From assembly GCF_009193305.1 (NCBI RefSeq), contig NZ_WBVS01000004.1:62001-126000 (forward strand): a DNA stretch of 64,000 bases, written 5' to 3'. Shown here piece after piece: positions 30,797 to 46,689 of the stretch. This DNA is from Bifidobacterium cebidarum. GTDB taxonomy: Bacteria > Actinomycetota > Actinomycetes > Actinomycetales > Bifidobacteriaceae. The position numbers were made by a program, and so were the translations under genes. Under the pieces are notes generated by a model, which was given only the letters and a program-made list of their open reading frames with translations, had not been told where the DNA came from and did not search any database. Positions within the stretch are counted from its first letter, which is position 1. Every line of letters begins with the position of its first letter.

Positions 30797-32113
30797 ATGA
30801 ACACCGATATCCACCCGTCCAATCACTCCTCCGTCAAGGCCGCACACAATCCTCGTTCACTGTGGCGCCTGTCCGCATACCGTAACTGGTTCATTTCAGA
30901 CACTGCCGATGTTTTCGCGGTCAGTCTTCGTACGTTCGCCATACCGTTAATCGGCCTTGCCTTGTCCGGTTCTGCTTTTATTTCAGGGCTATTGGTTGCC
31001 ATCGAATCAGCTATAGGGCTGGTGCTTATGTCCATCGGCGGCGCAATCGCCGACCGACATGATCGCAGACGACTGATGATTCTGCTCGGGCTTGTTGGCG
31101 TGGTGCTGTCTGTGTCAGCGACTGTTCTTCTCGCTTTTGGCATGATGAATACGACAGCATTCATGTTTTTTGTCGTTATGTTTGCAATGATGAACGGCCT
31201 CTTAGGGCCATCCAACGACGCGATGCTCAAATCGATTGTGCCGATGGAACGATTTGCCAAAGCCCAAGCAATACGCGAGGCTCGTGAATCCTGCGTCGAA
31301 CTGTCTGGCGGCGCAATCGGCGGATTGTTGTACAGGATTGCCGGTTGGTGCCCGTTCCTCACGTCTGCAGCGCTATACCTGATTGCGAGCATCACCGCAC
31401 TGGCCTTGCCGAAGAACACGACAGTCGCAACCGAGAACGTTCCAGCAAATCGACAAATTTCTAGTAGTTCGACAATGGATTCGTCGTTCCTCGCCCAGTT
31501 TATTGAGGGTTGGAAATGGACATTGACCAGACGAACGGTTCTTGCAGCCATCGTCCAGGGAGCGGTCATCAACGTCGCTTGCTATGGGAACATCATCGGA
31601 GTTCAAATCATGCTCGCCGAACGTGGTACGGACGCTGCGCTTATCGGACTGGTGGGCACAGCTACCGGCGTCGCGGCTTTAATCGGATCACTGGCTGCCA
31701 ATTGGCTGGTGGATCATATTCCGACCGGCAAGCTCATCATGCTTACCTTTGCCGTGTTTACGTTTGCGATAACACCTCTGCTATTCACCGACTCATACGG
31801 TGTAATCGTTGCATGCACGGCGATGGCTTCCTTGCTGTTTCCTGCGTTTAACGCCGGCGAGCTCGGATTCATTTATGGGCGCACGCCAGACCACATGCAA
31901 GGCAGGGTGTCTACCGTATTCGAGACCGCAATCGGCATTCCCGGAGCCTTGACGCCTGCTTTGGTCGGTTGGCTGTTGCAGACACCCGGACTTGGTTTCA
32001 GGGCAGTCATGATACTGGTCGTTGCATGTGCGGGCGTTGGACTGTTGCTCGCCTGCGTCACCCCGACGCGCGACATCCCTCTGCCATCACAATGGGAACA
32101 AGCTGAACTGTAA
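30797..32113 (+). CDS. MFS transporter, MefA/EntS-like exporter
   Basis: About 438 residues with 12 hydrophobic segments, an ADRHDRRRLMILLG loop after helix 2 and a RSLWRLSAYRNWFISDTAD beginning, as in MFS_3 macrolide or siderophore exporters. The cargo is unknown. The start is uncertain: the frame is open from 30710, several ATGs are possible and none has a good ribosome site; 30797 leaves a normal N-terminal tail. A related fragment (GKIIMLTFAVFTLAM) survives at 39023-39097. Confidence 0.8.
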   Translation: MNTDIHPSNHSSVKAAHNPRSLWRLSAYRNWFISDTADVFAVSLRTFAIPLIGLALSGSAFISGLLVAIESAIGLVLMSIGGAIADRHDRRRLMILLGLVGVVLSVSATVLLAFGMMNTTAFMFFVVMFAMMNGLLGPSNDAMLKSIVPMERFAKAQAIREARESCVELSGGAIGGLLYRIAGWCPFLTSAALYLIASITALALPKNTTVATENVPANRQISSSSTMDSSFLAQFIEGWKWTLTRRTVLAAIVQGAVINVACYGNIIGVQIMLAERGTDAALIGLVGTATGVAALIGSLAANWLVDHIPTGKLIMLTFAVFTFAITPLLFTDSYGVIVACTAMASLLFPAFNAGELGFIYGRTPDHMQGRVSTVFETAIGIPGALTPALVGWLLQTPGLGFRAVMILVVACAGVGLLLACVTPTRDIPLPSQWEQAEL

Positions 32114-32142
32114 GACGATGGCCGACAATGCGCGGCAATCGA

Positions 32143-32179
32143 ACGAGGGCACCGCAAATATATCGCGTCGTGCCCTCGT
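32143..32179 (+). terminator. Hairpin after the MFS exporter
   Basis: Perfect 10-base arms (32143-32152, 32170-32179) 30 bp after the stop codon. No T run follows, so its strength as a terminator is uncertain. Confidence 0.55.
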
Positions 32180-32361
32180 ATACCAGAATCGACTCATTGT
32201 CTGGTCTGTGCGGCGTTCAACGCCGGCCAATTCATACGCAGCAAAGCCTATTTCGCTATCAATCGATAGATTGTCCGATATGTCCAATATCGCCGAAATG
32301 TCTGGACTGAGGTAGGCTGAGCATAAGGTTTCAGGAAAGGATCAGTTAGTAGCTTTTCTCG

Positions 32362-32570
32362 ATGCGAACATCTTCCCGCCACACTTGGCTGACGGATGTA
32401 CTGCTCACGTTTGCAGACCATCACCTGTTCGACCCCGAGTACTCCGATGACGTGCTTGAAAAAGCCAGCTGGGCACCATGCAGGAGGAGCTTGAACGGCT
32501 CGAACATTTCGACATGCCGGGATTTGCCCAGACAATGCGCCGACTGATGAATGGGCGGGTTCAGATTTAA
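32362..32570 (+). pseudogene. Possible relic of a small gene in two frames
   Basis: An open frame from the ATG at 32362 reads TWLTDVLLTFADHHLFDPEYSDDVLEKA, then turns unlikely. A different frame from 32478 (preceded by Lys-Ser-Gln-Leu-Gly-Thr) reads MQEELERLEHFDMPGFAQTM and ends at 32570. Joined by one frameshift they would make one alpha-helical segment. GAAAGGA occurs about 25 bases before the first ATG. I do not recognise a family, and the call is weak. Confidence 0.3.
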
Positions 32571-32853
32571 GATCGTTTCATTATCTGCGTTTAATTATTC
32601 CAAAAGATGTTTCATAGGGCTGTCTGATTTTAGAAAAAAGTTGGTTTAGAGAGTTGTTTTATCGGCGGTAAATGATGGCTACATGCGCATTACGCTATGC
32701 GTATTGGTTTGTGCACATTGAGCTGATACGACTCTTGGGGCATGTGTACAGCATCACTGAAAAATCGCCACCCTAACTGTCATTTTTGGAAAGGCGACAT
32801 AAAGATTCAAACAAATGCTGACAATGGAGTGACCTCCAGCGGCAGTCCTGCTA
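32571..32853. other. AT-rich stretch without a gene
   Basis: No coding sequence is visible. The sequence is poorer in GC than its surroundings and contains GGGCTGTCTGATTTTAGAA near 32611, which recalls the end of some insertion sequences, but no partner end was found. An imperfect palindrome lies near 32683-32702. It is probably the left edge of the accessory region. Confidence 0.4.
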
Positions 32854-33342
32854 TCAGTAGTTGGTCATTTCGAGTTCCAAGCCCATGTCTTCAGTTTGGG
32901 TGAGACCGGTCTCATGAAAACCGATGTGTCGGTAAAAACCTTGGGCGTTGTCGTTGAAGCCAGCGACCCAAAGCGCAAGCCGGTCGTTGCCGACGGCCCG
33001 TTTGCCGGCCTCGACCAGCATGCGTCCAACGCCCTGCCGGCGCCGGTCGGCCAACACATACAATGAGGCCAGTTCCGCTGCTTCGGGACGGTCAATCGGT
33101 GGTCGCGGCGTGCGCAGCAGTTCCGCGAACCCAATCACGTGGTCGTCGTCAAGCGCCACCAGCACGACCTGATCGGAGTCCCTGGCGTGGGCATCCGTGA
33201 GCTTCAGCGCGAACTGTGGTGTGATGGCATCCACTATCTCCTGCGGAATATGCCCCTGATTTAGCTCCCGCTACGTTTGAGACTGCACCTGCGCCTTCTC
33301 CTCGAACCATCGTGGTTCGATCGGAGCGATACGAATCGTCAT
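32854..33342 (-). pseudogene. GNAT acetyltransferase with in-frame amber codon
   Basis: The gene should begin at the ATG at 33342 (GAAGGA upstream) and read MTIRIAPIEPRWFEEKAQVQ... Codon 24 is TAG (33271-33273). The same frame then continues with RELNQGHIPQEIVDAI and a full GNAT core: YVLADRRRQGVGRMLVEAG for the acetyl-CoA loop and AQGFYRHIGFHETG near the end. In relatives this place usually holds a Trp (TWRE...), so TGG to TAG is likely. A GTG-initiated remnant (33234 to 32854) still carries the CoA site. It lies 5 bp after the SdpI-family gene and would be last in that operon. Substrate unknown. Confidence 0.82.
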
Positions 33343-33347
33343 GTCTA

Positions 33348-33740
33348 TCATTCCTTCTGAATATCTTCGTTCGATTCTAGGTAATGCCTTTTTGCGTCGA
33401 AATTCGCGATGGTGCCGCATGCAACAAGCCAAGCAACAAGCATGGCGGCAAGTGCAAGAAGCATCCACCACCAGATCATGTTCATGGTATTAATGTCACG
33501 GGTTGCAATCATGCCGACCAGTACGTCTAATGGCATCAGAGTGGTCAGAACACCACAGCCGAGGAACACGAACGCATACTTGCGGTGTATGTATTCCCAT
33601 GTTTCGTCCGAGGCGATGGTCCAGCGGGTCTTGATGCCGACCTGATAATTCCTCTCCAATTGACCGTTCCTCGCGAACCCATACATGGAGAAGCACCACT
33701 GGACTATCGGCAGGAATAAACCGATCAGGCAAAGAAGCAT
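33348..33740 (-). CDS. SdpI-family membrane protein
   Basis: 130 residues with three or four membrane helices. The segment GIKTRWTIASDETWEYIHRKYA is the hallmark of SdpI/YhfL (DUF1648-type C-terminal) proteins. SdpI protects Bacillus from the SdpC toxin. The ATG at 33740 has GAAAGGA 8 bases upstream; the longer open frame to 34004 is non-coding. Third gene of an operon controlled by the palindrome at 34334. In this context, immunity against a peptide toxin is plausible but not shown. Confidence 0.75.
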   Translation of the reverse strand: MLLCLIGLFLPIVQWCFSMYGFARNGQLERNYQVGIKTRWTIASDETWEYIHRKYAFVFLGCGVLTTLMPLDVLVGMIATRDINTMNMIWWWMLLALAAMLVAWLVACGTIANFDAKRHYLESNEDIQKE

Positions 33741-33753
33741 ATCCCGATTCCTT

Positions 33754-34098
33754 TCAGGCATTATGCCGGTTAAGGGGCGCTTGCACGGCGGCGACACCGA
33801 ACACGGACTGCACGCAGAACAATCCCGTGAGGAATACGAATGCGGCGGGATGGTATGTGCGGTAGAAATCAACCATGTCGGGTTGCGCGTATGGCATCGC
33901 GATGGTGTACGCACAACCGACGAGCAGAGCGACGGATAGCGAGCCGACCAGTAGTGCGATGACTGTGAAACGCAGTCGTCGCCGGTCTTCGCACGCATGC
34001 GCAAGCCAGCGAAACGACAGCGTGATGCAAATGCTGACCAGTAGGTAGCACACCAGTCCGTATGCGGGCAGCATATCGATGATAAGCAGATACTTCAT
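33754..34098 (-). CDS. Small multi-pass membrane protein, unknown function
   Basis: 114 residues, three to four hydrophobic segments (MLPAYGLVCYLLVSICITLSF, FTVIALLVGSLSVALLVGCAY, AAFVFLTGLFCVQSVFGVAAV) and basic inner loops (CEDRRRLRF). I recognise no family. GAAAGGA lies 6 bases before the ATG at 34098. It lies between the 49-residue peptide gene (11-bp gap) and the SdpI-family gene (13-bp gap), so all three are almost certainly cotranscribed. Confidence 0.7.
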   Translation of the reverse strand: MKYLLIIDMLPAYGLVCYLLVSICITLSFRWLAHACEDRRRLRFTVIALLVGSLSVALLVGCAYTIAMPYAQPDMVDFYRTYHPAAFVFLTGLFCVQSVFGVAAVQAPLNRHNA

Positions 34099-34109
34099 GG
34101 AAGATCCTT

Positions 34110-34259
34110 TCAGATCAGGCATTCGAAAAGATGCCATTCCGAGGAATCAGCATCACGGATGATGATCAACGTACCGCTCTCGTTGTCTATCTCCCTATGA
34201 GGCTGATCGTATAGATCATCAAGTTGTGTTCCCAGATCCAATTGCAGAGTCTTTTCCAT
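34110..34259 (-). CDS. 49-residue acidic peptide, first gene of the SdpI operon
   Basis: A short soluble product: a polar acidic N-terminal half (LQLDLGTQLDDLYDQ) and a C-terminal half with a hydrophobic patch followed by Asp-Ser-Ser-Glu-Trp-His-Leu-Phe-Glu-Cys-Leu-Ile. AGGAGA lies upstream of the ATG. The layout recalls short class III lanthipeptide precursors (LxLQ-like leader, Ser-Ser...Cys end), but no lanthipeptide synthetase is in the window, so it may equally be a small regulator. It starts 74 bp from the shared palindrome. I do not assign a function. Confidence 0.55.
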   Translation of the reverse strand: MEKTLQLDLGTQLDDLYDQPHREIDNESGTLIIIRDADSSEWHLFECLI

Positions 34260-34333
34260 CGGAGGTCTCCTAGCCTTCGCTGTATACCGATAAGTCTCAT
34301 TGAATCCACGTACGTCCAGCAATCGCAACGTCA

Positions 34334-34353
34334 TGTCAAGCAATCGCATGACA
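34334..34353. promoter_or_regulatory. Operator copy 1 (TGTCA-N10-TGACA palindrome)
   Basis: TGTCAAGCAATCGCATGACA, a 20-bp palindrome of form TGTCA-N-GC-N4-GC-N-TGACA. It lies between the 49-residue peptide gene (minus strand) and the response regulator (plus strand, ATG 27 bp away). On the minus strand its right half forms CTTGACA, a -35-like element. Near-identical copies lie at 36663 and 38593. It is the likely binding site of the neighbouring NarL-type regulator, which could then control both directions. Confidence 0.75.
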
Positions 34354-34380
34354 GCGGTGCCGTTTCATGTAGGAGAACCA

Positions 34381-35106
34381 ATGTCCGCCGGCGGTACAGT
34401 GGACGTTATGGGACTTGAGAACAAGCCGGACGTAATGGGCGTGATTCGTATCGGCGTGTTGGATAATGATCCGTTCGCATTGGATGCGATGTGTGCGATG
34501 ATCGCGGCCATGTCCCGGGATTTCCGCGTCGTGTGGAGCACGGGGTCGCCGGCGGTGGCGATCGAGCACTGCCATAACGCGCATACGAGGCCGGATGTGC
34601 TCGTGCTGGACATGGCGTTGGGCGGCATCACGGGCGCGGACGTGTGCCGGCGCATCCGACGCAGGACGAGTGCGGTGGGTATCGTGTGCGTCACCTCGTA
34701 TTCGACGGACGTCTACCGGGCGGAGGCGATTGCGGCCGGCGCGCAGGGACTGCTCGCCAAGGAACGACTCAGTGCCGATATCGTTGACGCCGTGCGTCAG
34801 GCGGCCTCAGGGGAACCGACCGCAGTGCAGGCCGCGGCGGGGTTCCGTGACGCGGTTTCGGCGTATGCGCTGCTGTCCGGCACGGTGCCGGCGAGGATGT
34901 CGGAGGACATGAAAGACTCGTTGTCCGCGCGTGAGAAGGACATCCTGCGCCTGTACTCGCAGCGTCTCACTACCGACGAGATCGCACAACGTCTGGGCAT
35001 TACTAAGGGCAGCGTGTTCACGTACGTGCATCGCGCGGCCGACAAGCTCGGTGTGACCAGCCGTAGGGAGGTGCTGGAGGCATGCGCCAGATACGATCTG
35101 CTGTAA
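34381..35106 (+). CDS. NarL/LuxR-family two-component response regulator
   Basis: 241 residues. The receiver domain (about 22-140) has the acidic pair in LDNDPFALDAM, phospho-acceptor Asp77 in VLVLDMALGG, Thr/Ser in VCVTSYS and Lys in LLAKERL. A LuxR helix-turn-helix follows (about 172-235: LSAREKDILRLYSQRLTTDEIAQRLGITKGSVFTYVHRAADKLG). I chose the ATG at 34381, with AGGAG 6 bases upstream; the frame is open further but has no ribosome site. The histidine kinase gene overlaps its end by 25 bp. An operator palindrome lies 27 bp upstream. Confidence 0.9.
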   Translation: MSAGGTVDVMGLENKPDVMGVIRIGVLDNDPFALDAMCAMIAAMSRDFRVVWSTGSPAVAIEHCHNAHTRPDVLVLDMALGGITGADVCRRIRRRTSAVGIVCVTSYSTDVYRAEAIAAGAQGLLAKERLSADIVDAVRQAASGEPTAVQAAAGFRDAVSAYALLSGTVPARMSEDMKDSLSAREKDILRLYSQRLTTDEIAQRLGITKGSVFTYVHRAADKLGVTSRREVLEACARYDLL

Positions 35107-36281
35107 ACCGGCTTATCGGACGACTCGGTCCAAACAACGATCACCCGGTCATCGCGGCGACATGCGTGCTGCTGGCCGCGGCCCTCATCGCGGAATATAC
35201 GGCTCGGGCCGCGACGGATGCCTCCTCAACGGTGAGCGTGCAGCATCTCGTACTGGTTCTGGTGATACTCGTCGGTCTGACCGGCGGCATATTCCGCCCG
35301 CATCGGTTCCTCTGGGCGGCGCTTGTGGCCGGGGAGATATTGCTGATGAGGACACTCATGATTACTCCGTTAGCCATCAGCATCGTCTGTACGGGATTTC
35401 TTGCCTACCTCAATACATGGTCCGGCGCAATCGCCACCGGACTGCTACTCACGTTGCTGTTCGCTCCGGCACCACCTAGTAGCAACCATCTGCTGGTAGC
35501 CACATTGATGCATATCGCGCTCTATTGCTTCCCGCTAGTGACCGGACTGCTACTGCACATGATGCGACAGCGCGACCGTGACTCGTATCTGCTGCGTCGC
35601 CAGCAGGAACACGAGGACACGGCCCGCAATTTGCATGACACCATCAGCAACGATCTCGCCTATCTCATCCTACGCATCGACCACGCCGAAACCAGCGGCA
35701 TGCCCGCCGGCGAGCATGAATACCGTCGGCAACTCCGGGAACTACGCGACGCGGCCGATCGCGCCATGACCCACACACACACGGTCATCGAGTCGCTAGA
35801 AGAGCATCCGGAGCAACATCCGCAACCAGAACCGTCGGAACCGCGAAGCACGGCAATATTCCCGCTAGCAACGGCCGCAGATCACGCCACCGTGCAACAG
35901 GCGGAACTGCAATCCCTGATCGACGACGAGGAGACGAAACTCGAATCGCTCGGCTTCACCGGTGACAACCTGCTCGGCGAACTCCGCCGCCCGCTCTCCC
36001 CGGGCATGATGCAGCTGTTCACAGGATTGCTGACGGAACTCTACGCGAACATCGCCAAGCACGCCGACCCAGCCGAATGGTACGCCGTCTCCATCAGCTT
36101 TGACGCTGAAGAGCTCCGCATCTCCGTCAGCGACACCATCGCCAAACATGACGGAAAGCTCGGGTTGGGCAGCGGCCTCGACCGTTACCGCATCATCATC
36201 GAAAAAGCCGGCGGCAATTTCACCATCCACGCGGAACAGCGACACTGGCAACTGGATGCCACCATCCCAAACAAGCTATGA
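35082..36281 (+). CDS. Two-component sensor histidine kinase (NarX/LiaS-type)
   Basis: 399 residues. Five or six hydrophobic segments lie within 1-160 with only short external loops, so the signal is probably sensed in the membrane. The HisKA_3 box has His185 in ARNLHDTISNDL. The ATPase domain has the N box ELYANIAKHADP and the G box GLGSGLDRYR. The typical HisKA_3 length and intramembrane sensing resemble kinases that respond to cell-envelope stress or antimicrobial peptides. The ATG overlaps the regulator gene by 25 bp, with GGAGG 10 bases upstream. Confidence 0.9.
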   Translation: MRQIRSAVNRLIGRLGPNNDHPVIAATCVLLAAALIAEYTARAATDASSTVSVQHLVLVLVILVGLTGGIFRPHRFLWAALVAGEILLMRTLMITPLAISIVCTGFLAYLNTWSGAIATGLLLTLLFAPAPPSSNHLLVATLMHIALYCFPLVTGLLLHMMRQRDRDSYLLRRQQEHEDTARNLHDTISNDLAYLILRIDHAETSGMPAGEHEYRRQLRELRDAADRAMTHTHTVIESLEEHPEQHPQPEPSEPRSTAIFPLATAADHATVQQAELQSLIDDEETKLESLGFTGDNLLGELRRPLSPGMMQLFTGLLTELYANIAKHADPAEWYAVSISFDAEELRISVSDTIAKHDGKLGLGSGLDRYRIIIEKAGGNFTIHAEQRHWQLDATIPNKL

Positions 36282-36307
36282 ACCATCGGCAAGTTCGGCA
36301 GCTTGGA

Positions 36308-36583
36308 CTACAGGAGCGCAATCACCAGAGCAATAGACGCCAAACTTGCGGTTACGCCAATCCCTATGGCAAGAAGCGGTTTTTGCTGAGCGTTGCTTTT
36401 CACAGCGGCAAGCAACGCCATGACCAGCAGTAGCACTCCGACGGCTCGACAGAGCAGGCTCAAGGCACCTCCCGGGATCGCAAACGCAAGAGACTGCAAT
36501 GCTATGGATGCGCACAGCAGGATCACGACCAATCGTCTGGCGCCACTGTTTTGTACCGACGTGTTAGGAGTGGACTTTCCCAT
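36308..36583 (-). CDS. Small membrane protein controlled by operator copy 2
   Basis: About 91 residues with three hydrophobic segments (LVVILLCASIALQSLAFAI, LLCRAVGVLLLVMALLAAV, AIGIGVTASLASIALVIALL) and a polar N-terminal tail. No family is recognised. The ATG at 36583 has GAAGGGAAG upstream; the frame is open to 36634. It is convergent with the histidine kinase gene (26 bp apart). The palindrome at 36663-36682 lies 79 bp before the start. Confidence 0.6.
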   Translation of the reverse strand: MGKSTPNTSVQNSGARRLVVILLCASIALQSLAFAIPGGALSLLCRAVGVLLLVMALLAAVKSNAQQKPLLAIGIGVTASLASIALVIALL

Positions 36584-36662
36584 TGCGATCGCTTCCCTTC
36601 GTTGGGACTCGGTTCTCTTGCGATTTCCATTCAATCAGGGAACGGCCGACAGCACAACATCA

Positions 36663-36682
36663 TGTCAAGCGATCGCATGACA
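36663..36682 (-). promoter_or_regulatory. Operator copy 2
   Basis: TGTCAAGCGATCGCATGACA, one base different from copies 1 and 3. Similarity to copy 3 extends beyond the palindrome: on the minus strand both continue with GATGTTGT, and a GATTGAAT occurs 26 bases after TTGACA in both. It precedes the three-helix membrane protein by 79 bp. Confidence 0.75.
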
Positions 36683-36800
36683 GGAATCATTATCCGAGGC
36701 CTGCACCCAGTCAAGCCCGTCGTTAGCTGAACACGCATCGCCCTCAATATCGAGCTAATCGTAAAATCGAGCATACAGGGATGTCGTTGTTCGTTCACGG

Positions 36801-37931
36801 TTATGGTGCCACCGGCGCGACGAGGATGTCGTCGCTGCTGCGGTTGGTCGGAATAAGCGCGGGTGTGGTCGATACCTTGCCGGTAGTCATGTCGGCGTTC
36901 GCAATGATGCCGATCTGCTTCACTCCACGTGCCGGGACCTTCACGGCCGGGTTCAAGGATTCTCGGACCAGCATGACGATCCGCGTGTCCACGACGATGG
37001 CCTGCGAAACATACGGCGACGACCCCGTGGGCATGGAGATGCACTGATTACCGATAGCGAACGGCTGCTCGATGACGGGGCAGATTTGCCGTGTTCCTAC
37101 GGCCCATGGCTTTCCCGCAACGACTACAAGCGTCTGGAAATCCGAGGAGACCGTGGTGCTGTCCGTTCGTTCCAAGGTGTTCGCATCGAACATGTCGATT
37201 TGCCGGGGAGTCCCGTTCATGTCCGTACCGGCCACCAGCACGTGATTGTTCCATACGACCGGCCGCAAGTACAGCAGAGCGTCGTCGGTCACCTGTGCCT
37301 TGACCGAACGGTCGGATAACCCGTAGCGGATGATTTTACCCTGGTATCGGTTGGAACTCAACGTGAGCTCGTGACCGGTGATGAACAGGTGCTGCCCGTC
37401 GGAGACCTGGCCTTCGGTGTAGATCTTCAGTATTTTTCGCTCAGTGATTTTGCCCGTACCGTCCTGGACGACCAGCAGGTTGAGATACGAGTCGTCTTCC
37501 GGAGAATCGTTGCCGTTCATCACCGCCACGACCCCGCCGCCATACGGTCCGATGGACATAACACCGGAATAATTCGGATTATCCAACAGATGGAATGATC
37601 GCATCACGCCATCCTTGTCGATGATGAGATGCATGTTCGAGCGTTGGCCTCCGGCGATGAACTCGCCGTTCTCATACGAGTATACGGACACGTTCTGCAA
37701 TTCGGGGACCCGTTCATCCGTAATGATGCCGCCCTTACGGTCAATGGTCAGCACGCCGCCCTTGTTCGATTCCAGCATGGCCGAATAGATAATCCGATAG
37801 GCTGCCGGCTTGTTCGAGCGCTCATAATGCGGGACGAGGTACCAGACGATGAGCGAAGCGGCCGCTATGATCGCCGTTGATACCGCGGCGACTATGGCAA
37901 TCGCCGTCTTGTGATAGTGTCGCATCTTCAT
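36801..37931 (-). CDS. Membrane-anchored extracytoplasmic protein, unknown function
   Basis: 376 residues from the ATG at 37931 (GGAAAG 9 bases upstream). A basic N terminus and one hydrophobic helix (about 9-31, IAIVAAVSTAIIAAASLIVWYLV) anchor a large outer domain. That domain is rich in beta-strand-like blades (repeating short hydrophobic-Gly-Asp patterns such as VLTIDRKGGI, LIIDKDGVM, LLVVQDGTGK), suggesting a beta-propeller. Two Cys occur (ICPVIEQPFAIGNQC). No family is recognised. It lies inside the two-component locus with a degenerate operator 90 bp upstream, so a sensing or capture role on the outside is possible. Confidence 0.6.
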   Translation of the reverse strand: MKMRHYHKTAIAIVAAVSTAIIAAASLIVWYLVPHYERSNKPAAYRIIYSAMLESNKGGVLTIDRKGGIITDERVPELQNVSVYSYENGEFIAGGQRSNMHLIIDKDGVMRSFHLLDNPNYSGVMSIGPYGGGVVAVMNGNDSPEDDSYLNLLVVQDGTGKITERKILKIYTEGQVSDGQHLFITGHELTLSSNRYQGKIIRYGLSDRSVKAQVTDDALLYLRPVVWNNHVLVAGTDMNGTPRQIDMFDANTLERTDSTTVSSDFQTLVVVAGKPWAVGTRQICPVIEQPFAIGNQCISMPTGSSPYVSQAIVVDTRIVMLVRESLNPAVKVPARGVKQIGIIANADMTTGKVSTTPALIPTNRSSDDILVAPVAP

Positions 37932-38020
37932 CGTTGCATCTTTCCTATGTTTTCCGAATCGATCATGGATCCGAACCGATACCGTCAGCATACGAACGAT
38001 TCCACATCCGCTTGTCACGC

Positions 38021-38039
38021 TGTCATCAATCACATGGCA
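38021..38039 (-). promoter_or_regulatory. Operator copy 4 (degenerate)
   Basis: TGTCATCAATCACATGGCA matches the 20-bp consensus with one base missing and three changed. It lies 90 bp before the start of the membrane-anchored protein, slightly further than the 74-79 bp of the other copies. It may be a weak or former site. Confidence 0.45.
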
Positions 38040-38119
38040 GGCACGCAAACCGGCTATGCAGGATAAGGGAACACCCAACTTACGGAACTTGACTATATGT
38101 GATGTCCCTGCTCACAGGC

Positions 38120-38362
38120 TTAATCCGCTCGATCCTTCTTTCTTTTCGCTAGAAGTATCCGGGTGACCCGGATCGATAGGATTGCTAGAACGAGTGGAAC
38201 GACCACCCATTTAGGGAATTGCATCGCGTTGGAAACCAATGCCAGCACAAAAATCAACACGTACGCCAAAAGTTCCCACCATTTTAGAGGCAAACGATAC
38301 GTTCCCTTCACGTTCTTGCACCGGTGTTGTATCTCAGTCGAGTTCTTCTTCTGTCGATTCAT
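38120..38362 (-). CDS. Small two-helix membrane protein
   Basis: 80 residues: a basic N-terminal tail, two membrane helices (WWELLAYVLIFVLALVSNAM and WVVVPLVLAILSIRVTRILL) and a Lys/Arg-rich end. GGAAGAAG lies just before the ATG. Its ATGA overlaps the stop of the preceding small gene, so translation is coupled. No family is recognised. It belongs to the operon behind operator copy 3. Confidence 0.6.
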   Translation of the reverse strand: MNRQKKNSTEIQHRCKNVKGTYRLPLKWWELLAYVLIFVLALVSNAMQFPKWVVVPLVLAILSIRVTRILLAKRKKDRAD

Positions 38363-38514
38363 GGCTTCTTCCTTGTGTTTTGGTAATAGGTTTTGGAGAC
38401 GATCGAAATCACCGCATACAATGCGCAGGTTCCGGCCGCAGCGAGCAAACGCCATCGTCCCTCGCTCCTGCACAAACGCCTATTACTTGAGCCGTGTGAA
38501 GTACCATCGGTCAT
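38359..38514 (-). CDS. 51-residue single-helix membrane peptide
   Basis: A polar basic N-terminal part (TDGTSHGSSNRRLCRSEGRW) followed by one hydrophobic helix (LLAAAGTCALYAVISIVS) and a basic tail. GAGGGG lies 7 bases before the ATG at 38514; another ATG is two codons upstream. The stop overlaps the next start (ATGA). It starts 79 bp from operator copy 3. The size and charge could suit a small membrane-active or regulatory peptide; nothing is known. Confidence 0.5.
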   Translation of the reverse strand: MTDGTSHGSSNRRLCRSEGRWRLLAAAGTCALYAVISIVSKTYYQNTRKKP

Positions 38515-38592
38515 GGTCATTCCCCTCTTCGAGGGCCAGCACTTTCCCATAATCCTTATTCAATCCGAGAACAGCCGGCCATACAACATCCT

Positions 38593-38612
38593 GTCAAGCA
38601 ATCGCATGACAG
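38593..38612 (-). promoter_or_regulatory. Operator copy 3
   Basis: TGTCAAGCAATCGCATGACA, identical to copy 1 over all 20 bases. It lies 79 bp before the first start of the small-membrane-protein pair on the minus strand. Its flank matches copy 2, including the GATGTTGT just after the palindrome. Confidence 0.75.
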
Positions 38613-38639
38613 GAATCTTCGTAGACATAGGATGAGACG

Positions 38640-39010
38640 GGAAGAGCCTGTCGCGGCAAGCCCTCCGACTATAGATGCAGGGGAACCGGCGGCGACGATG
38701 TCGGCACACAGGGTCAGGAACAGTCGCGTCCGTTTCGGTTCGATCAGGAACAATGGCATGGCCGTGGCCGTGTCGGTCAGGACTCGAACGGATAGCAGCG
38801 CCGCGATGATCGCCACGGGTTCGCTCATGGGTATGATCGCCCCGGCGATGTCCAGTCCGTTGAACGGCTTGTACAACACGATGATTGGCGCGTCGGCGAG
38901 CATCGCCCCAGCCACTCCTCACCCATTGGCGCATGCCCGTGGAATGCCCCTTGATCCGGGCCTTCGGCCAACGGTCCAATCCGCAATCGTGCATCATGCG
39001 GCGCACGCGA
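38640..39010 (-). pseudogene. Relic of an antimicrobial-peptide-type ABC transporter
   Basis: On the minus strand a fragment reads RVRRMMHDCGLDRWPKARIK then GHSTGMRQW, the region before and at the ABC signature. After a frameshift near 38917 it continues as AGAMLADAPIIVLYKPFNGLDIAGAI, the Walker B and D-loop. The key Asp-Glu pair of Walker B is Tyr-Lys (LYKP for LDEP), so it cannot hydrolyse ATP. A hydrophobic tail follows, perhaps from the adjoining permease joined by deletion. The signature type is that of bacitracin/lantibiotic-resistance ABC ATPases. Confidence 0.65.
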
Positions 39011-39022
39011 TGACGCACGTCA

Positions 39023-39097
39023 GGCAAGATCATCATGCTCACCTTTGCCGTGTTCACGCTTGCGATGGTACCGTTGCTGTCTTTAGGCAATGGATGA
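39023..39097 (+). pseudogene. Fragment of an MFS transporter gene
   Basis: 25 codons read GKIIMLTFAVFTLAMVPLLS and then a stop. The same segment in the MFS exporter at 30797-32113 reads GKLIMLTFAVFTFAITPLLF, and the DNA is nearly identical over about 45 bases (compare 31730-31780). It is a leftover of a second, related exporter gene. Confidence 0.65.
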
Positions 39098-39182
39098 CAA
39101 TGAGCGCGGAGACTCAATATACAGCCATAATTGGTATGTCTAGAGCAGGTAGATTCGCGGCGCGAGTGAAAGGACCAACAGC

Positions 39183-40076
39183 ATGGATAGCAGCACGGGA
39201 CGCAGCCAGGAACAGATTTCGAACGCACAATACGAATATCGTCTGCCGGCTGGATTTGAACGGTGTTCGAAACTGAAACCAGTCGCACAGGCTCCGAGTG
39301 CGTTGGAGCGGGTCAAGGCCATTGTGGACATTCTGTATTCGCCGGGCGGCTGCCCTTGGGATGGCAAGCAGACGAACCGTTCGCTGCTCAAACCGCTGCT
39401 TGAAGAGACCTATGAGTATGTGGATGCAGTTGAAACGAACGACAGGGATAACATGCGCGAGGAGCTGGGCGACGTGTTGCTGCAGTCGGTGTTCCAAGCG
39501 CGGGTGTGCGCGGCCGACTCAGCCGATCCATTTGACATTGACGAAGTGGCTGATCGTCTGGTGAACAAACTCATTACCCGCCATCCGCACGTATTCGAGC
39601 CTGATGATGACGCTGATGCGGAAGACAAGGCACAAAAAAACGAGACTGAGTTTTCTCCGGAGGAGACTCTCGCGCTGTGGGAACGCATGAAGCAGCAGGA
39701 GAAGCATCGCAGATCCGTGCTCGACGGCATCTCGCATGCGCAAGGCGCGCTGCCTCGTGCAGCCAAAGTGGTCTCGCGCATCATGAAATCGGTACACAAG
39801 GATGAGCTGCTCGCCGTTTTTGACGAGGCAATCAGAGCGAATAATACCCAGTGTCACACTGAAGAAGCTGCGTTGGATTCATCGATTACCACGGATTCTT
39901 CTGATTCAAGGCCCTCGACTTACGCCAATGAAATCCTCACCATCGTGCGCCGCGCTCAATCCGAAGGCATCGACCTCGAAGCTGCATTGCGCAATCGACT
40001 GCGCGATGTGGAGGCTACTATCTCCTCGCATGAAAAGGCACTTGAAAGCGAAGCGTCAGATTATTCCACTGAATGA
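39183..40076 (+). CDS. mazG: Nucleoside triphosphate pyrophosphohydrolase MazG
   Basis: Hydrolyses (d)NTPs to monophosphates and pyrophosphate, cleaning the nucleotide pool. 297 residues. The MazG core is at about 55-150: SPGGCPWDGKQTNRSLLKPLLEETYE, and EELGDVLLQSVFQA with the Glu/Asp magnesium ligands. The C-terminal part is long and poorly conserved. GAAAGGA lies upstream of the ATG. It marks the return to core genome after the accessory region. Confidence 0.9.
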   Translation: MDSSTGRSQEQISNAQYEYRLPAGFERCSKLKPVAQAPSALERVKAIVDILYSPGGCPWDGKQTNRSLLKPLLEETYEYVDAVETNDRDNMREELGDVLLQSVFQARVCAADSADPFDIDEVADRLVNKLITRHPHVFEPDDDADAEDKAQKNETEFSPEETLALWERMKQQEKHRRSVLDGISHAQGALPRAAKVVSRIMKSVHKDELLAVFDEAIRANNTQCHTEEAALDSSITTDSSDSRPSTYANEILTIVRRAQSEGIDLEAALRNRLRDVEATISSHEKALESEASDYSTE

Positions 40077-40097
40077 CAGGGGTATGCCGATTCTGTT

Positions 40098-40124
40098 TGA
40101 CTGCAACTGTCGGCAGTCATTTTT
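40098..40124 (+). terminator. Intrinsic terminator of mazG
   Basis: A 7-bp stem (40098-40104 with 40113-40119) and an 8-base loop followed directly by TTTTT, 22 bp after the mazG stop. Confidence 0.8.
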
Positions 40125-40155
40125 GGATGCTTATGCGCTGCCCTAATCATCCAAA

Positions 40156-40761
40156 CTATTTGGCATGCATGCGGCTTGGCCTCGGATGTGCTTTTGCCGT
40201 GAGTCTGGTTGCTTCGATTTTCCACACGGTGACGGCGTTCACCTGTGCATCGGTAAATTCGACATGTGGCATATGAGCCTGATGGTCCATAAGCAGCTGC
40301 AACCCATGTCGTCGTTCTTCAAAATCGTCCACAATCGAGGCGATGCCATTGCCGATGACCGAGGTGAACGCCTCGCCCCAGTTGCAGGCAGTACGCCCCT
40401 CGATGACCTCGCAATCGGTTCGCATGGCGAATGATACAGGCAGTTGATTGCTCGCAGCTCGGATAGCGTCAAGTTTGCGTCCGCGTGACGCCGAATGGAT
40501 CCATAGGGTGAGGGAACCGGAAGCCGGATCATAGTCGTACCCGAAGTTGAGCGGCACCATCGTCAGGCCTTCAATATCCATGTACGCGACATCAATGATG
40601 TCGCATCGGCTGATGATTGCACCTATTTGAGCGAAATCGACGATCTCACGGTCGGCACGCCGCATCCTGCGATGTCCACCGGCTACAGTGTGCTCGTCAT
40701 CCCGACGCTTCAGCACATGCACGCCATCGGCTGGTTTGCTGTCGTCATTCATGCCAGTCAT
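40156..40761 (-). CDS. Pyridoxamine-5'-phosphate-oxidase-like FMN-binding protein (NimA-type)
   Basis: 201 residues with a split-barrel flavin-binding fold. REIVDFAQIGAIISRCDIIDVAYMD begins the domain, followed by VPLNFGYDYD, LWIHSASRGRKLDAIRAA and CNWGEAFTSVIGNGIA, the order seen in nitroimidazole-resistance (NimA-like) flavoproteins. The physiological substrate is unknown. AAGGAT lies 9 bases before the ATG. It starts 47 bp after the JetC gene, in the place where a JetD gene could be expected. Confidence 0.82.
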   Translation of the reverse strand: MTGMNDDSKPADGVHVLKRRDDEHTVAGGHRRMRRADREIVDFAQIGAIISRCDIIDVAYMDIEGLTMVPLNFGYDYDPASGSLTLWIHSASRGRKLDAIRAASNQLPVSFAMRTDCEVIEGRTACNWGEAFTSVIGNGIASIVDDFEERRHGLQLLMDHQAHMPHVEFTDAQVNAVTVWKIEATRLTAKAHPRPSRMHAK

Positions 40762-40808: not shown

Positions 40809-43800
40809 TCATTCGGATGCGGATTGGTCTGTGATTAGCGGAGCCTCCTCATCGATGCCATCCAGGCTGGCTTCGCGCAGGGAGGTGAGGCCGGTGTCGG
40901 GATCCTTGTAGGTCACGTAAGCCTTGGTGGACACCTCGAGGATTTCGCCGGTCTTGCTTTCCGGAGCGGATACGATGACCTGGAAGCCGAGGCGCGGCAG
41001 CACGCTCAATGCACGCTGCGTGTAACGACCGTCCGCCTTGATGAGCGCCTCGTCAAGGAACAAGGTGGTGTAGCTCGGTTTCAGACGGTTCTCCATACCG
41101 CCGCCCAACAGGTAGATCAATGCAGCGCCATAGACGAACGAGGTGAGTTCCTGCAACGCGCCGCCCGAACGGCCTCCGGTCGAGGTGATGCGCTCGTCCG
41201 GACCATCCGCATGGTGCACGATGGCGTAGAACGAGGAGCGGCAGCGCGGGTCCAGATTGCGGGCACCATACTGTTTGATACCGTTGGCGTCCTTGACTTG
41301 CGCAAGCTCGTCCTTCAACAGCGTGACCATGGGAGCGCACGCGGTAAAGACGCGGCGGGACTCAGCGTGCTGCTTGGCGGCATCATCCGCTTCCCCGGCA
41401 GCAGTCTTCCAATCGTTCAATGCACCGATGGCCCGTGTGAGCTGGCTGGAGAACACGCGTTCCGGTCTGCGTACATCCGCTTGCAAGGACAGGCTGCCGT
41501 GCTTGGGGCCGAATTGCTGGCCTTCCAGCATGGCGTTGATGCGGTCGAGCTGATCGTGGATGTCGGTGGCATCCGTGTCGATGGCTCGTTTGATGGTCAG
41601 GAAGCTCATCAGCAGTTGTTCAAGGCAACGCCGGTATTCGGCTTCCGTGGCCGTGGTGGTTGCCAGTTGCGCAAGGCTTTCAAGCTCATCGAGATAGTAA
41701 CGGTAGTCTTCCACGCTTGCGGTGAGCGCATCATCGTCCGCCGCCCAGATGCCGATGTAAGCGCTCATCTTCGATTCGACGGCCGTGCGTGCCGCGTTTG
41801 CCTGAGTCTGCAGCATGGTGATGCGTGTGTTGATATCGTTGGCCATGCCGGCAAGGACGCGTGCAGTGAAATCCGAGGTTCCAGCTCCCGCGCCGATGAT
41901 CATATGAGCTCGTAGCGCCGTGTCTTCGATGCCGGTGAATCGATTTTCATATGCTTCGGCAAGTGCTGCGGTTACCTCAGCCGGTAGCTGACGCGTTGCG
42001 ACTTGTTCGCGGCCACCGTCCTCCTCTGTATCTTCCGCTGCTGCGGCATGACGACTGAGCCACATGAGTGCCGCCTCAACTGCCCGCGATGATGCAGCTG
42101 AAGCTTGTTCGGCTTTCATACGACGCTCGTCCAACTGTTCGAGTTCTGTGGTTAGCTCGTCCTTGCGGGCAGAGAGCTCGGCGAGCTTGGGGTCGTTCTT
42201 AATGGAACTCATCGACTCTTCGATATCGGCGATTGTTTTGCGGGCGCCGTCGATGTCGATGCGTTCCCAAGAGGTGTAGGCAAGCTGGTTGGCGAGTTCG
42301 AGCTCGCGATGCAGCTTGTCTGAATTCTGCTTTGCGGATGTATAGTCGCTGTCTGACTGTTGCAACTTCCGCTTCGCCTGATCGATCTGCTGCTCGAGAT
42401 CGTTCAGGTAGGCTTCGTTGACGAAACCAATGACTTGCGAACGATCTTTGATGCCGTGCTGCCCACGGGCTCCGGATTTGATCTGACCATCCGTCTGCAC
42501 CTGGCGCATGCTGCGGTCGTCATCATCGATGGCATCCACACACAGGGCGTCATAATGCTCGGATTGGGCTTGCGAGCGCAGCCATCCGGCGAATGGCGAG
42601 TCTTCGCGGTAGCGCAGTTTGCTGGAAAGCCAGTTGCTCTCAGCGGATGCGGAAACGTCGGATGTATCGTCGTTTGCGTAATCGCGTGAGGTGTCTACGA
42701 ATTGCCAGGTGCGTCGGCTCATGGCGTGCGGGTCGATGGTGCTGACCTTGGCTGCGAAACCTTGTTCATGGCGTTTGTCCACGAGGATGGTTTGCGCGAT
42801 GGGCGCATAGGCTACGTTCATGGCGAGGCGCCAGCGTTCGTCGGTTTCCTTGACGTCCATGAGTTCGGCCACATAGGGCAGATCCGTTGGAGTCAGTCCG
42901 GTGGCGCGCGCCAGCATGGCACGGGTTTCGTCCATGTGCTGGGTGATGCGGGTGCGCTGCGATTTCTGGCGGTCGTAGTCGCGTTGCAATCGTTCGAGGT
43001 CGGCGCGCGCTTCAGCACGTGCGTTCATGGCCGTGGCGAGCTGTTCCTCGCATTCGCCGGAACGTTCGTCATACGTGCGTTTGAAGTTCACGGCATTGAT
43101 GCGTCGCTCGTTCCATGCCTGTTCGTCGGTCGGCAGCTGCTCATCAATGGATGCGAACGTTTGTTCGATGCGCTTGCGGCTGGTTTCCGTATCCTCCAGC
43201 GTGCGCTTGGCCTGGTCCAGTTCCATTTCCAGGCGGGTCAGGTTGCCGCCGTCGAGGCCTTGCATCTGGCCGCGCAGCATGTCGATGCGGCTGTGCAGGT
43301 TCTCGGCGTTGCGGCGTGCGTTTCGGGCTTCGGATTCGTAGGCTTGCGCTTCATTGCGGTCGACGGGCAGCTGTGCGCCGACTTCCATGCGCATGCGGGC
43401 CATGGCCCAATCTTCCAGCGCATCCGGAATCGCCTTGCCATCCTCGGTCGCAACATCATCGAACATATGTACGCATTGGTTGGCTTTGGCATATTCGCCG
43501 TAAGCGTTTTGGATGCCGCGCAATGCGTCCATGCGTTTGGTTTTCTCTTCCATGGCATGGAAGTTCGCGTCGTAGCGTTCGTAATCCTCGACCGTGGTGC
43601 GTGCGAGCTCCAATGCTTCGGGTACGCCGAGCACACCTTGTTTGAAGATGTCGTCGAGTCTGGATGGCGCGTCCGCGGATTGGATCTTATGCAAGAGTCG
43701 GCAGGCTTCCTCGCTCAGGCCCATGATCGACCAAATGTGGCTGTGGAAGGCTTCGGCGCTGGGGAAGGTCAGACAGTCGGGGTAGGTGTCGCGCAACTGG

Positions 43801-44339
43801 CCGGGTGTGAACGGGTTTTCGCGATACTGATCCATGAGTCTGGGATCGATGGGCTTGCCCCAGACCGCGTATTGGCGGCGCACGTCGGCGCGACCATCAC
43901 CGGGCATCAGGTACAGGAATTTCGCGCAGGAGAGAATCTGACCGGAGGTTTGATTGCGATAGGTGTCCACGATGGCACCCCATACCGCTTGCGGAGCGCC
44001 GGTAACAGGATCTTTGCCGCGTAGGTAGATTGGCTCATCGCCGTGTTCGGTGCTGCCGACACCGATCATGCCCTTCAAATACGTGTAGTCGCTGCGTTCG
44101 GAACGTCCGGAGTTCGATGCCTTGTTGAATGGCGTACCGGTCGGGTAGAGCAGTGAGATTTGCGCATCCACCAATGTGGATTTGCCGGACTCGCTGGCGC
44201 CGGCGAGCAGCGTCACGGGAAGTGTGGAATCCGTGGAGGGGCGGAATTCGTGATAGCCCTCGTAGGAACCCCAGTTGACGAGTCGGCGGCTGACCATCAT
44301 CCAACGGTCGGCGATCATCTGCAGTTCTGCGGCTGCCAT
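40809..44339 (-). CDS. jetC: SMC-like ATPase of a Wadjet/Mks system (JetC, MksB-like)
   Basis: 1176 residues forming a condensin-like motor that extrudes DNA loops. Walker A is GASESGKST (about 47-55). Two long coiled-coil arms span about 240-450 and 640-900 around a hinge that includes the RWRLAMNVAYAPIAQTILVDK segment. The ABC signature STGGRSGGALQELTSF and Walker B LFLDEALIKAD lie near the C terminus. The ATG at 44339 has AAGGGGAG upstream; a GTG at 44345 overlaps the JetB stop. It acts with JetA and JetB; no JetD nuclease gene is adjacent. Confidence 0.9.
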   Translation of the reverse strand: MAAAELQMIADRWMMVSRRLVNWGSYEGYHEFRPSTDSTLPVTLLAGASESGKSTLVDAQISLLYPTGTPFNKASNSGRSERSDYTYLKGMIGVGSTEHGDEPIYLRGKDPVTGAPQAVWGAIVDTYRNQTSGQILSCAKFLYLMPGDGRADVRRQYAVWGKPIDPRLMDQYRENPFTPGQLRDTYPDCLTFPSAEAFHSHIWSIMGLSEEACRLLHKIQSADAPSRLDDIFKQGVLGVPEALELARTTVEDYERYDANFHAMEEKTKRMDALRGIQNAYGEYAKANQCVHMFDDVATEDGKAIPDALEDWAMARMRMEVGAQLPVDRNEAQAYESEARNARRNAENLHSRIDMLRGQMQGLDGGNLTRLEMELDQAKRTLEDTETSRKRIEQTFASIDEQLPTDEQAWNERRINAVNFKRTYDERSGECEEQLATAMNARAEARADLERLQRDYDRQKSQRTRITQHMDETRAMLARATGLTPTDLPYVAELMDVKETDERWRLAMNVAYAPIAQTILVDKRHEQGFAAKVSTIDPHAMSRRTWQFVDTSRDYANDDTSDVSASAESNWLSSKLRYREDSPFAGWLRSQAQSEHYDALCVDAIDDDDRSMRQVQTDGQIKSGARGQHGIKDRSQVIGFVNEAYLNDLEQQIDQAKRKLQQSDSDYTSAKQNSDKLHRELELANQLAYTSWERIDIDGARKTIADIEESMSSIKNDPKLAELSARKDELTTELEQLDERRMKAEQASAASSRAVEAALMWLSRHAAAAEDTEEDGGREQVATRQLPAEVTAALAEAYENRFTGIEDTALRAHMIIGAGAGTSDFTARVLAGMANDINTRITMLQTQANAARTAVESKMSAYIGIWAADDDALTASVEDYRYYLDELESLAQLATTTATEAEYRRCLEQLLMSFLTIKRAIDTDATDIHDQLDRINAMLEGQQFGPKHGSLSLQADVRRPERVFSSQLTRAIGALNDWKTAAGEADDAAKQHAESRRVFTACAPMVTLLKDELAQVKDANGIKQYGARNLDPRCRSSFYAIVHHADGPDERITSTGGRSGGALQELTSFVYGAALIYLLGGGMENRLKPSYTTLFLDEALIKADGRYTQRALSVLPRLGFQVIVSAPESKTGEILEVSTKAYVTYKDPDTGLTSLREASLDGIDEEAPLITDQSASE

Positions 44340-44341
44340 CG

Positions 44342-45127
44342 TCACTCCCCTTCCTTCTGCGTGTGTACCGTATTGGCTGTATCGCCGTCATCATCCGTGG
44401 CATCGAACAATGGCTCGGTGAAGAGATTCTCATCCGGAATGTCGTCATCCGATTCGGCTGCATCGGAATCCGATGATTCCACCGACTCGGCATCCGCGCC
44501 ATTGAAATCATCCGAATCAGATGCCTCCCCCAGGTTCTTGGCCGCGGTATCCAGCCAGGTATCGGCCAATGCGCGGTCCAGTACCACGGGCACCAATGGT
44601 GTGATGAGGTACATGGCCTCATCATCCATTCGAGCCAGATAGCCGTAGGTGATCATCGTGGAGACGATGGCGCCTACCTGTTTGAGCACGCCTTCCTCAT
44701 CGTTGCGCGAGGCCAAGAAACCTGCTCCCGAGGCGAGCGCGGCGCGGATTTCCTCGAAACTCACCAGCCATTCCGATTGGTCGGTGCGCGTGTTTTCATA
44801 TTCGAGCACGCGGATGCGCAGGAAGGCGAGCAATGCCGCTTCCTCGCGTTTCAAGCTGGCTCGGGTTTTCAATGCTCGCAATGCCACATTGTCGTTGGCC
44901 ACGGGGGTCGCATACATGATGCGGTAACGTTCGTTGACCACGAGGGCGAGCAGATCGTTGTTGAGTGAACGTTCCACCGCTTCACGGTTATCGTTGACCA
45001 GATCGTAGAGTTGACCGGAAATATAGCGTTCACGTTTCAAGGCGATGGCGGCCATGCGCGCGTCCGCGGTCATATCGCCGTAATCGTCTTCAAACAGGGC
45101 GTACGGGTTGGCGACTGGTTCGCTCAT
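44342..45127 (-). CDS. jetB: JetB/MksE-like subunit (DUF4194)
   Basis: 261 residues. The winged-helix-rich N-terminal part ([23 protein letters not shown]..., [15 protein letters not shown], then [19 protein letters not shown]) matches the kleisin-binding KITE-type subunit of Jet/Mks complexes. The last 60 residues are an acidic Ser/Asp/Glu tail. GGAAGGAT lies before the ATG. It lies 2 bp after jetA and overlaps jetC, so the three are one translational unit. Confidence 0.85.
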
Positions 45128-45129
45128 GC

Positions 45130-46689
45130 TTATCCTTCCTCCACGATGCTGTCAAGTTCCTCCAACGAAGCCCATACCGGGCTCGTGATCCAATCCCTGG
45201 GTGTGCCGTCCAGGGCGACGCAATGCCAGACCACACCAGCTGCGGGATTCGCCACAGAATCCTTGTCTTGACCTTGGCTCCCGTTTGGCGTGGCCACGGA
45301 TGGCAAACTGCCGAGGAATCCGACGATTTCGCTTTCGCGGCGTTCCCGTTCGGGCAATCGGTTGAAACTGGCGGCTACATCCACCTTGCCCTGTGCGATG
45401 GCTGGATTGCGGCGAATGAGTTCCACCATATGACGCAATCGCGGGCCTCCACCTTCGACCATGTCTTTGAGATTGACCTGCGGCACTTGCCGTTCAGCGA
45501 CGTCCAAGGAATCCAAGCCCGGCATCTCGGTATAGGCCATCGAACGCGCGGGCCGCATCGGCAAGGGGGCGAACAGAGCGCTCGCCGTATCAGTGCCGTA
45601 TGGTCGTGAGGCATCGCCGGTATGGGCTTTCGCATCGGCGTTCAGGTTCACGTACAGCCGGTTCAATCGGCTCATCATCGTACGGTATCGCGTATCGGTT
45701 TGCTGGCGCACCAGACGGCTGATGGCCTCATCGGAGACGCGCATCTGATGGCGTACCGCTTCGATGCCGTCGTAGATGCGGGACAGTTCGTCACGAATCT
45801 GCCCGAGCAATGCCGCGGATTCACCGGCGAGATACGGGGTTTTGGCGATGTCTCGCAAGGCGGAGTCAATCTGCTGGCGGCCTTCGTCAGTAATGATCAC
45901 CTGGAACGCGTCTTCGAATCGACGTCCGGAATCGGATTCGCTGAATGAACGGCGGTATTCCTCGTGATACCGGTTCAGGGTTTCGTCCACGCTCATGTCG
46001 CCGGCCTGCATGCGGCGGCGCAACGCATCGCCGTTATCGCGTTCGGTGAGCACCAGTTCGCGCAGATCGATGGGAACGCCTCGCAACGTGTTATGGATCA
46101 CGGCGATCACATCCTCCACCTGAGCCTGACTCAATGTGGCATGCTGCTGGCCTTGCTGGATGCGCTTGATCTCATGCTTGCGTTCTTTGATCTCACTGTT
46201 GAGTAAGCGGACACGTTCACCGGGGTCGGCGGTCAACTGCATGCGCGCATGTTCGATCTCCATGATGATGCTGTTGGCCTGGGCGCCGGAGAGAGCACGG
46301 GATTCGTCTTCCAAACGGCTTAACGCTTCGATGGCGCGATGCGCACGAGCGGTCAGGCGGTAGAGGAATCGATGGGAGGCGGCGTCATGCGAGTTGGCGA
46401 GCCAGGCGTAGTCGCCCTCGCCTTCACGGGTCAGATCGGCAAGGATGCGATGAGCCGCGTCCGCATAGGATTGGTCTTTCAACGTGTATTCGCCGCTGGA
46501 GGCCAGTAGCTCCAGACTCTGCGCGAAGCGTTCCTCCACGGTTTCGCGCGGCAGCTCGCCGGTCAACGGGTCGAAGGCGGCGCGCAGCAACGCCACATAC
46601 AGCATGGCATGCTGCCGCAACAGCAGACGGAGCACGCCGGTTTCATAAATCGGCCGCAGACGTTCCATTTCCCGTCTGATATCGCCCAT
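45130..46689 (-). CDS. jetA: JetA/MksF-like kleisin subunit (DUF3375)
   Basis: 519 residues from the ATG at 46689 (AAAGGAGA upstream; the longer open frame is non-coding). It is mostly alpha-helical with an N-terminal [25 protein letters not shown] region, a central coiled coil (about 150-230) and [25 protein letters not shown] near the end. It matches the kleisin subunit that bridges the heads of JetC. First gene of the jetABC operon. Confidence 0.85.

Follow-up and report, generated by a model that had tools for sequence, protein, structure and literature searches.

A repeated palindrome as predicted operator and candidate cassette joint in a putative envelope-defence array of Bifidobacterium

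Our comparison of a 64,000-nucleotide (nt) stretch of the Bifidobacterium cebidarum genome (contig NZ_WBVS01000004.1, positions 62,001 to 126,000; hereafter the window) with related stretches concerns a 20-bp palindrome, the box, that stands three times in the window around the genes of a NarL-type two-component system. The box co-occurs across the genus with these two-component genes, is followed by promoter elements in a near-constant geometry, and marks the place where homology between related islands stops. We consider it probable, on the strength of these sequence comparisons, that the palindrome is the operator through which the neighbouring regulator would activate envelope and antimicrobial-peptide defence operons, and that it also serves as the joint of interchangeable cassettes arranged head to tail. 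The whole is most likely an inducible envelope and antimicrobial-peptide defence array, to judge from its sequence. The joint role of the box is not visible from the window alone and needs the comparison of islands; genes were called and clustered in the window and in 30 related stretches (genomes and loci carry our own G and L numbers, G000 being the window's genome).

The box and its promoter geometry

The palindrome, TGTCA-N-GC-N4-GC-N-TGACA or TGTCANGCNNNNGCNTGACA, has three exact matches in the window (Table 1), which the original prediction had described as near-identical, placing the third at 38593 instead of 38592. The conserved flank that it had noticed is indeed there as a 60-nt repeat (copies 2 and 3 agree at 85%, copy 1 at 63%), and because any two boxes have about 8 nt downstream in common, the common element measures 28–29 bp. 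The proposed distance of 74–79 bp to the first start codon holds for copies 1 and 2 (74 and 79 nt) and fails for copy 3, which lies 65 or 71 nt from the open frame of a gene remnant. A degenerate fourth copy, claimed at 38021, is not supported: nothing there lies within three mismatches of the box, an equal gapped score is reached in 4 of 1049 window bins, and the two relatives compared, L099 and L095, are boxless at that place. Rfam gives no match at gathering score in 32000–40500.

The original prediction had proposed a search for the motif in the rest of the genome and in other bifidobacteria, and this search finds it confined to the locus in the window's genome. In G000 (2,335,510 bases) the three boxes of the window are the only exact copies and one-mismatch copies number zero; with up to two mismatches there are 12 copies, the three boxes included, vs 8 for a reversed control. 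The 112 genomes of the genus hold 59 exact copies, spread over 20 genomes, vs 2 for the reversed pattern, and the 189 genomes of the family add two further genomes with two copies each, two of these four copies having been fetched. Five or six boxes are present in strains of B. rousetti and B. oedipodis.

The box belongs to a predicted promoter. On at least one side a TTG, the beginning of the −35 element, starts 4–6 nt past the box in 60 of 66 boxes, a set that includes one-mismatch boxes and near-copy loci. A −10-like hexamer lies 17–18 nt past the −35 element in 23 of 25 representative promoters, chosen by hand and most of them non-homologous (two, those of TM24 and imm18, share one promoter sequence). 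The mean best −10 score is 3.8 at this spacing and −1.1 elsewhere (standard deviation 0.75, highest 0.85), and none of 500 shuffles reaches it. The box is thereby placed at about −60 to −41 (near −51), and therefore in the position of an activator site. Three boxes (L094 5536, L097 5782 and L103 4419, the first two in near copies) have the TTG flank on both sides and are symmetric over about 36 bp.

The two-component system beside the box

The regulator encoded next to box 1 scores 60.8 bits with PF00072 and 44.5 bits with PF00196, in each case more than the cut-off, and so belongs to the NarL/FixJ (LuxR-type) family; the nitrate regulator NarL itself was considered and rejected (73.3 bits with the NCBIfam NarL profile vs a cut-off of 250). 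Its partner kinase passes the HisKA_3 cut-off narrowly (24.9 bits vs 24), stays below that of HATPase_c (12.9 bits), and shows several membrane segments within its first 155 residues in a hydropathy scan. Among the 56 kinase-related proteins found, those with a named source are all labelled Bifidobacterium.

Close regulators (at least 76% identity) are encoded in 16 of the 112 genomes, 15 of which carry exact boxes, while the sixteenth, G097, has a box with a single mismatch. NarL-family proteins contact DNA through a segment that corresponds here to GSVFTYV(H/N)RA, and this segment is kept in a second regulator subfamily (52–55% identity, four genomes of the genus), where TGTCATGC-RCGC-GCATGACA adjoins the subfamily's own regulator gene. 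One of the fetched family boxes, that of G160, also stands beside a regulator of this second subfamily. The local regulon around a two-component system suggested by the original prediction thus gains support from a locus-confined motif, its co-occurrence with the regulator throughout the genus and a near-constant promoter geometry.

The regulator gene may itself be under control of the box. The motif TACAGT-N7-ATG is present in all 11 close regulator genes examined, the window's included (TACAGT at 34395–34400), which suggests a leaderless start; we regard such a start at 34408 as likely in the window. Box 1 had been placed 27 bp before the regulator gene, which is correct for the alternative ATG at 34381; the start at 34408 is the better conserved one. 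Five regulator genes of the second subfamily have TACGAT, then 7–8 nt and ATG, and in this subfamily the −10 element lies 29 nt past the box, the same geometry as in the other promoters, so that positive autoregulation is predicted. For the window-type regulator the −10 element lies 41 nt past the box and the case for positive autoregulation is weaker.

Cassettes and homology breaks at the box

Among the genes that follow the boxes in the window and the related stretches are SdpI operons, several small membrane proteins, a propeller protein, an FtsX-type set and ABC-2-like sets. The boxes also precede a pair made of an ATPase and a 687-residue membrane protein, whose best profiles, both below cut-off, are a lactococcin-972 ABC transporter and a bacteriocin-associated membrane protein, and a PgfS-like glycosyltransferase (below the PgfS cut-off) with a PMT-like protein. 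This gene content, with SdpI in the window and lactococcin-972-like and other ABC genes in relatives, fits the membrane-stress or peptide-response function first suggested for the locus, a function that we infer from it. Of the 16 loci that hold at least two one-sided boxes, 15 have all of them pointing in the same direction (the exception, L103, contains two separate loci). What distinguishes one related island from another is entire cassettes, each with its one box, as in the series 18-1/TM91 (L107, L109), 18-1/24-1-16/TM91 (L094) and 18-1/24-1-16/43-27/TM91 (L095).

Outward extension from the boxes was carried out for 52 of 64 TTG-flank instances, giving 1326 pairs; left out were the near copies of L094 and L091 (L097, L099, L101), a falsely oriented instance in L083 and another close to the end of its locus. 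The downstream side is common to 55 pairs, 26 of which also share at least 120 nt upstream; of the other 29, 28 lose upstream homology no more than 9 nt from the box and one loses it at 20 nt. Conversely, 107 pairs have the upstream side in common, again with 26 sharing at least 120 nt on the other side, and downstream homology ends within 18 nt in 66 of the remaining 81. Since these pairs are not independent, a second count was made over 12 whole islands, with one locus per genome. It gave 1110 alignment ends, of which 166 are at most 10 bp away from a box, vs 8.2 expected if they were uniform. An end lies within 15 bp of 32 of the 41 boxes, and within 25 bp of the midpoint of 24 of the 95 box-free intergenic gaps. 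A table of flank types (25 left and 24 right types, 32 combinations) was left unused because single linkage merged several cassettes.

An ordinary regulon might leave similar traces if the box were an operator and nothing else, the operons being shuffled by general processes, given that any unit keeping its promoter would start at the box and the breakpoints would be a by-product of where units begin. The alignment ends in 24 of the 95 box-free gaps agree with this, as does our finding no recombinase specific to the box, the single candidate pair also occurring without boxes. It accounts poorly, however, for the upstream homology that ends within 9 nt of the box in nearly all pairs that differ upstream, with the end of the next gene still tens of nucleotides away, and for the excess of alignment ends at boxes over those in box-free gaps. 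We consider this simpler explanation rather unlikely, less so than the other alternatives below.

If the box instead served chiefly for site-specific recombination, as the attachment site of a tyrosine recombinase, and its likeness to a promoter were secondary, this would explain why cassettes are bordered by direct repeats in 15 of the 16 multi-box loci. Two tyrosine recombinase genes adjoin the outermost box in six genomes (L094 16164–18249 and equivalents in five other box genomes); the first of the pair is 97–100% alike among genomes, and the pair ends at what by eye looks like the 3′ end of a tRNA; according to ARAGORN, neither the window nor any of 16 loci contains a complete tRNA gene. 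We rejected this integrase pair as the recombinase of the box, as G010 contig 13 and G073 (L116, L117) have the same pair and no box. G000, in addition, has no match to the pair at an E-value of 1e-80, and the −10 signal keeps its fixed distance from the box, all of which makes an attachment site very improbable. The palindrome of the mobile integrase cassettes (MIC), which has a different sequence, was also rejected as the identity of the box. The chromosomal dif/Xer site was considered as well: a dif-like half-site pattern has box 2 as its sole exact match in G000, and its eight one-mismatch matches include boxes 1 and 3.

At L095 2810 and L096 13968, a second box stands beside a cassette together with a regulator gene reduced to its 5′ part (frames of 79 and 95 residues, 137 nt shared), which looks like the result of a cassette insertion through recombination at the box and the regulator start.

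Several observations weigh against a box that is both operator of this regulator and joint of defence cassettes. The promoter spacing is broken in 2 of the 25 promoters; in the 81 pairs sharing the upstream side, ten downstream homologies end at 19–59 nt and five at 60–119 nt past the box; and the bacteriocin-related pair scores 234.6 with TIGR03608 (cut-off 254.85) and 36.8 with TIGR01654 (cut-off 189.35). The family box of G156 has no regulator homologue in 16 kb, and the box of G091 has no regulator in the 15 kb fetched. The boxes of G003, G034 and G042 adjoin a distant regulator (about 35% identity) with a different helix segment, and those of L086 in G015 one of 30% identity, so that the close regulator may not be the sole reader of the box. 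Another regulator might even be the true reader and the adjacent two-component pair a mere passenger, in line with the close regulator genes of G005, G023 and G072 that are interrupted by a stop beside boxes that are kept (a further copy in G072 has no stop). That box and close regulator occur together, that the second subfamily has a box matched to it and that the rest of G000 lacks the exact box all argue against a passenger, which we find improbable.

With the neighbouring regulator as reader, the kinase would sense a membrane-perturbing agent and the regulator would be phosphorylated; its dimer would then bind the TGTCAWGC half-sites at about −51 and recruit RNA polymerase to promoters whose −35 element is poor, inducing the defence cassettes and the 91-residue protein encoded beside the kinase. 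Recombination between the near-identical 28–29-bp box regions could lead to gain and loss of cassettes, and a new cassette would thereby come under the same control at once. In its strongest form, that the box serves an envelope-defence cassette array as switch and as crossover site alike, so that an incoming cassette falls under the local sensor in one step, this proposal is a tentative one, which may well prove too strong.

The array of the window and its counterparts

The features of the window are listed in Table 1. The SdpI-family target was correctly recognized by the original prediction. The 49-residue peptide that it had listed as a separate product is a truncated gene, the tail of a 159-residue membrane protein. 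The propeller protein was modelled from 23 sequences with a predicted local distance difference test score (pLDDT) of 91, and matches generic propellers. The ABC fragments correspond to permease residues 56–132 and ATPase residues 88–139 and 142–169. To judge from such sequence remnants, the window holds the eroded remainder of a larger modular array, of which the SdpI operon, the propeller operon, the gene of the 91-residue protein and pieces of an ABC cassette are left, and not the self-contained system first proposed.

Table 1. Positions in the window of the boxes, predicted promoters and genes of the array
Feature	Position	Strand	Remarks
SdpI-family protein	33348..33743	-	PF13630, 51.3 bits (cut-off 28.2)
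114-residue membrane protein, TM107 family	33754..34098	-	Conserved in SdpI and glycosyltransferase cassettes of relatives
49-residue frame	34110..34259	-	C-terminal remnant of a 159-residue protein with a single transmembrane segment; 91% identity to residues 114–159 of the L107 protein
Predicted SdpI-operon promoter	34299..34328	-	−35 TTGCGA 34323–34328, 18 nt, −10 TTCAAT 34299–34304; geometry as at other boxes
Box 1	34334..34353	-	Between regulator gene and SdpI operon; exact match; interspecies homology breaks here
NarL/LuxR-type response regulator	34408..35106	+	Response_reg and GerE matches; alternative start 34381
Histidine kinase	35082..36281	+	N-terminal half membrane-embedded (hydropathy scan)
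91-residue membrane protein, TM91 family	36308..36583	-	Convergent with kinase gene; 14 homologues in the loci read
Predicted box 2 promoter	36629..36657	-	−35 TTGTGC 36652–36657, 17 nt, −10 TTGAAT 36629–36634
Box 2	36663..36682	-	Precedes gene of 91-residue membrane protein; exact match; junction
Membrane-anchored beta-propeller protein	36801..37931	-	N-terminal helix 4–32 and propeller model
Small membrane protein, TM43 family	38120..38365	-	75% identity to residues 6–82 of the L095 protein
TM154-type gene remnant and leader	38362..38591	-	38416–38631 92% identical to L091; as protein only residues 118–139 found
Predicted box 3 promoter	38558..38586	-	−35 TTGTAT 38581–38586, 17 nt, −10 TTGAAT 38558–38563
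Box 3	38592..38611	-	Precedes remnant/TM43/propeller operon; exact match; junction
ABC permease and ABC ATPase fragments	38628..39081	-	Collapsed cassette; tblastn with L094 proteins

Downstream of SdpI, at 32854–33341, a GNAT acetyltransferase gene encodes 126 residues vs about 162 in relatives and its start looks cut. Directly beside the array, on the minus strand at 40809–46689, stands a Wadjet-type gene set (JetC 1874, JetB 378 and JetA 874 bits).

The box offers a concrete regulon, open to testing, through which gut bifidobacteria may detect and withstand antimicrobial peptides. It suggests how immunity genes can be exchanged without loss of regulation, as the units meet at a shared regulatory box, and if the joint role is true, new immunity cassettes in Bifidobacterium genomes can be listed from the sequence of the box alone. 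We found no precedent for this bifidobacterial regulon in a literature search that was largely without subscription journals.

The SdpI/YfhL family is associated with immunity against the SDP toxin in Bacillus subtilis, where control is exerted by an autorepressor. One protein of the window is a member of this family (PF13630), whereas the control in B. subtilis does not pass through a two-component box. The array resembles integron cassette arrays and dif modules, as far as the accessible parts of the sources describe them, in its head-to-tail units with one short repeat per unit, and differs from them in that the bifidobacterial repeat carries promoter geometry and that we found no repeat-specific recombinase. 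If the box is switch and crossover site together, its logic would be integron-like with control, and not capture alone, built into the joint. The MIC of Bifidobacterium longum have contiguous xerC-type integrases and a 20-bp palindrome, TTAAACCGACATCGGTTTAA (PMC2430713, in its accessible part); genus, contiguous xerC-type integrases and palindrome length are alike, and the sequence of the palindrome is different.

No pheromone gene was recognized in the bifidobacterial array, in an analysis that was not aimed specifically at bacteriocin or pheromone precursors. The blp region of Streptococcus pneumoniae (BlpRH) has a conserved BlpR promoter element that precedes immunity operons and is, in the accessible part of the published account, reported only at that locus; BlpR recognizes direct repeats and responds to the BlpC pheromone (PMC5295010). 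Here the element is a palindrome, the regulator is of the NarL type and the HisKA_3 kinase is membrane-embedded; what both systems have in common, within the same limits of the source, is a two-component regulator, a promoter element found only at the locus, and immunity operons under the control of that element.

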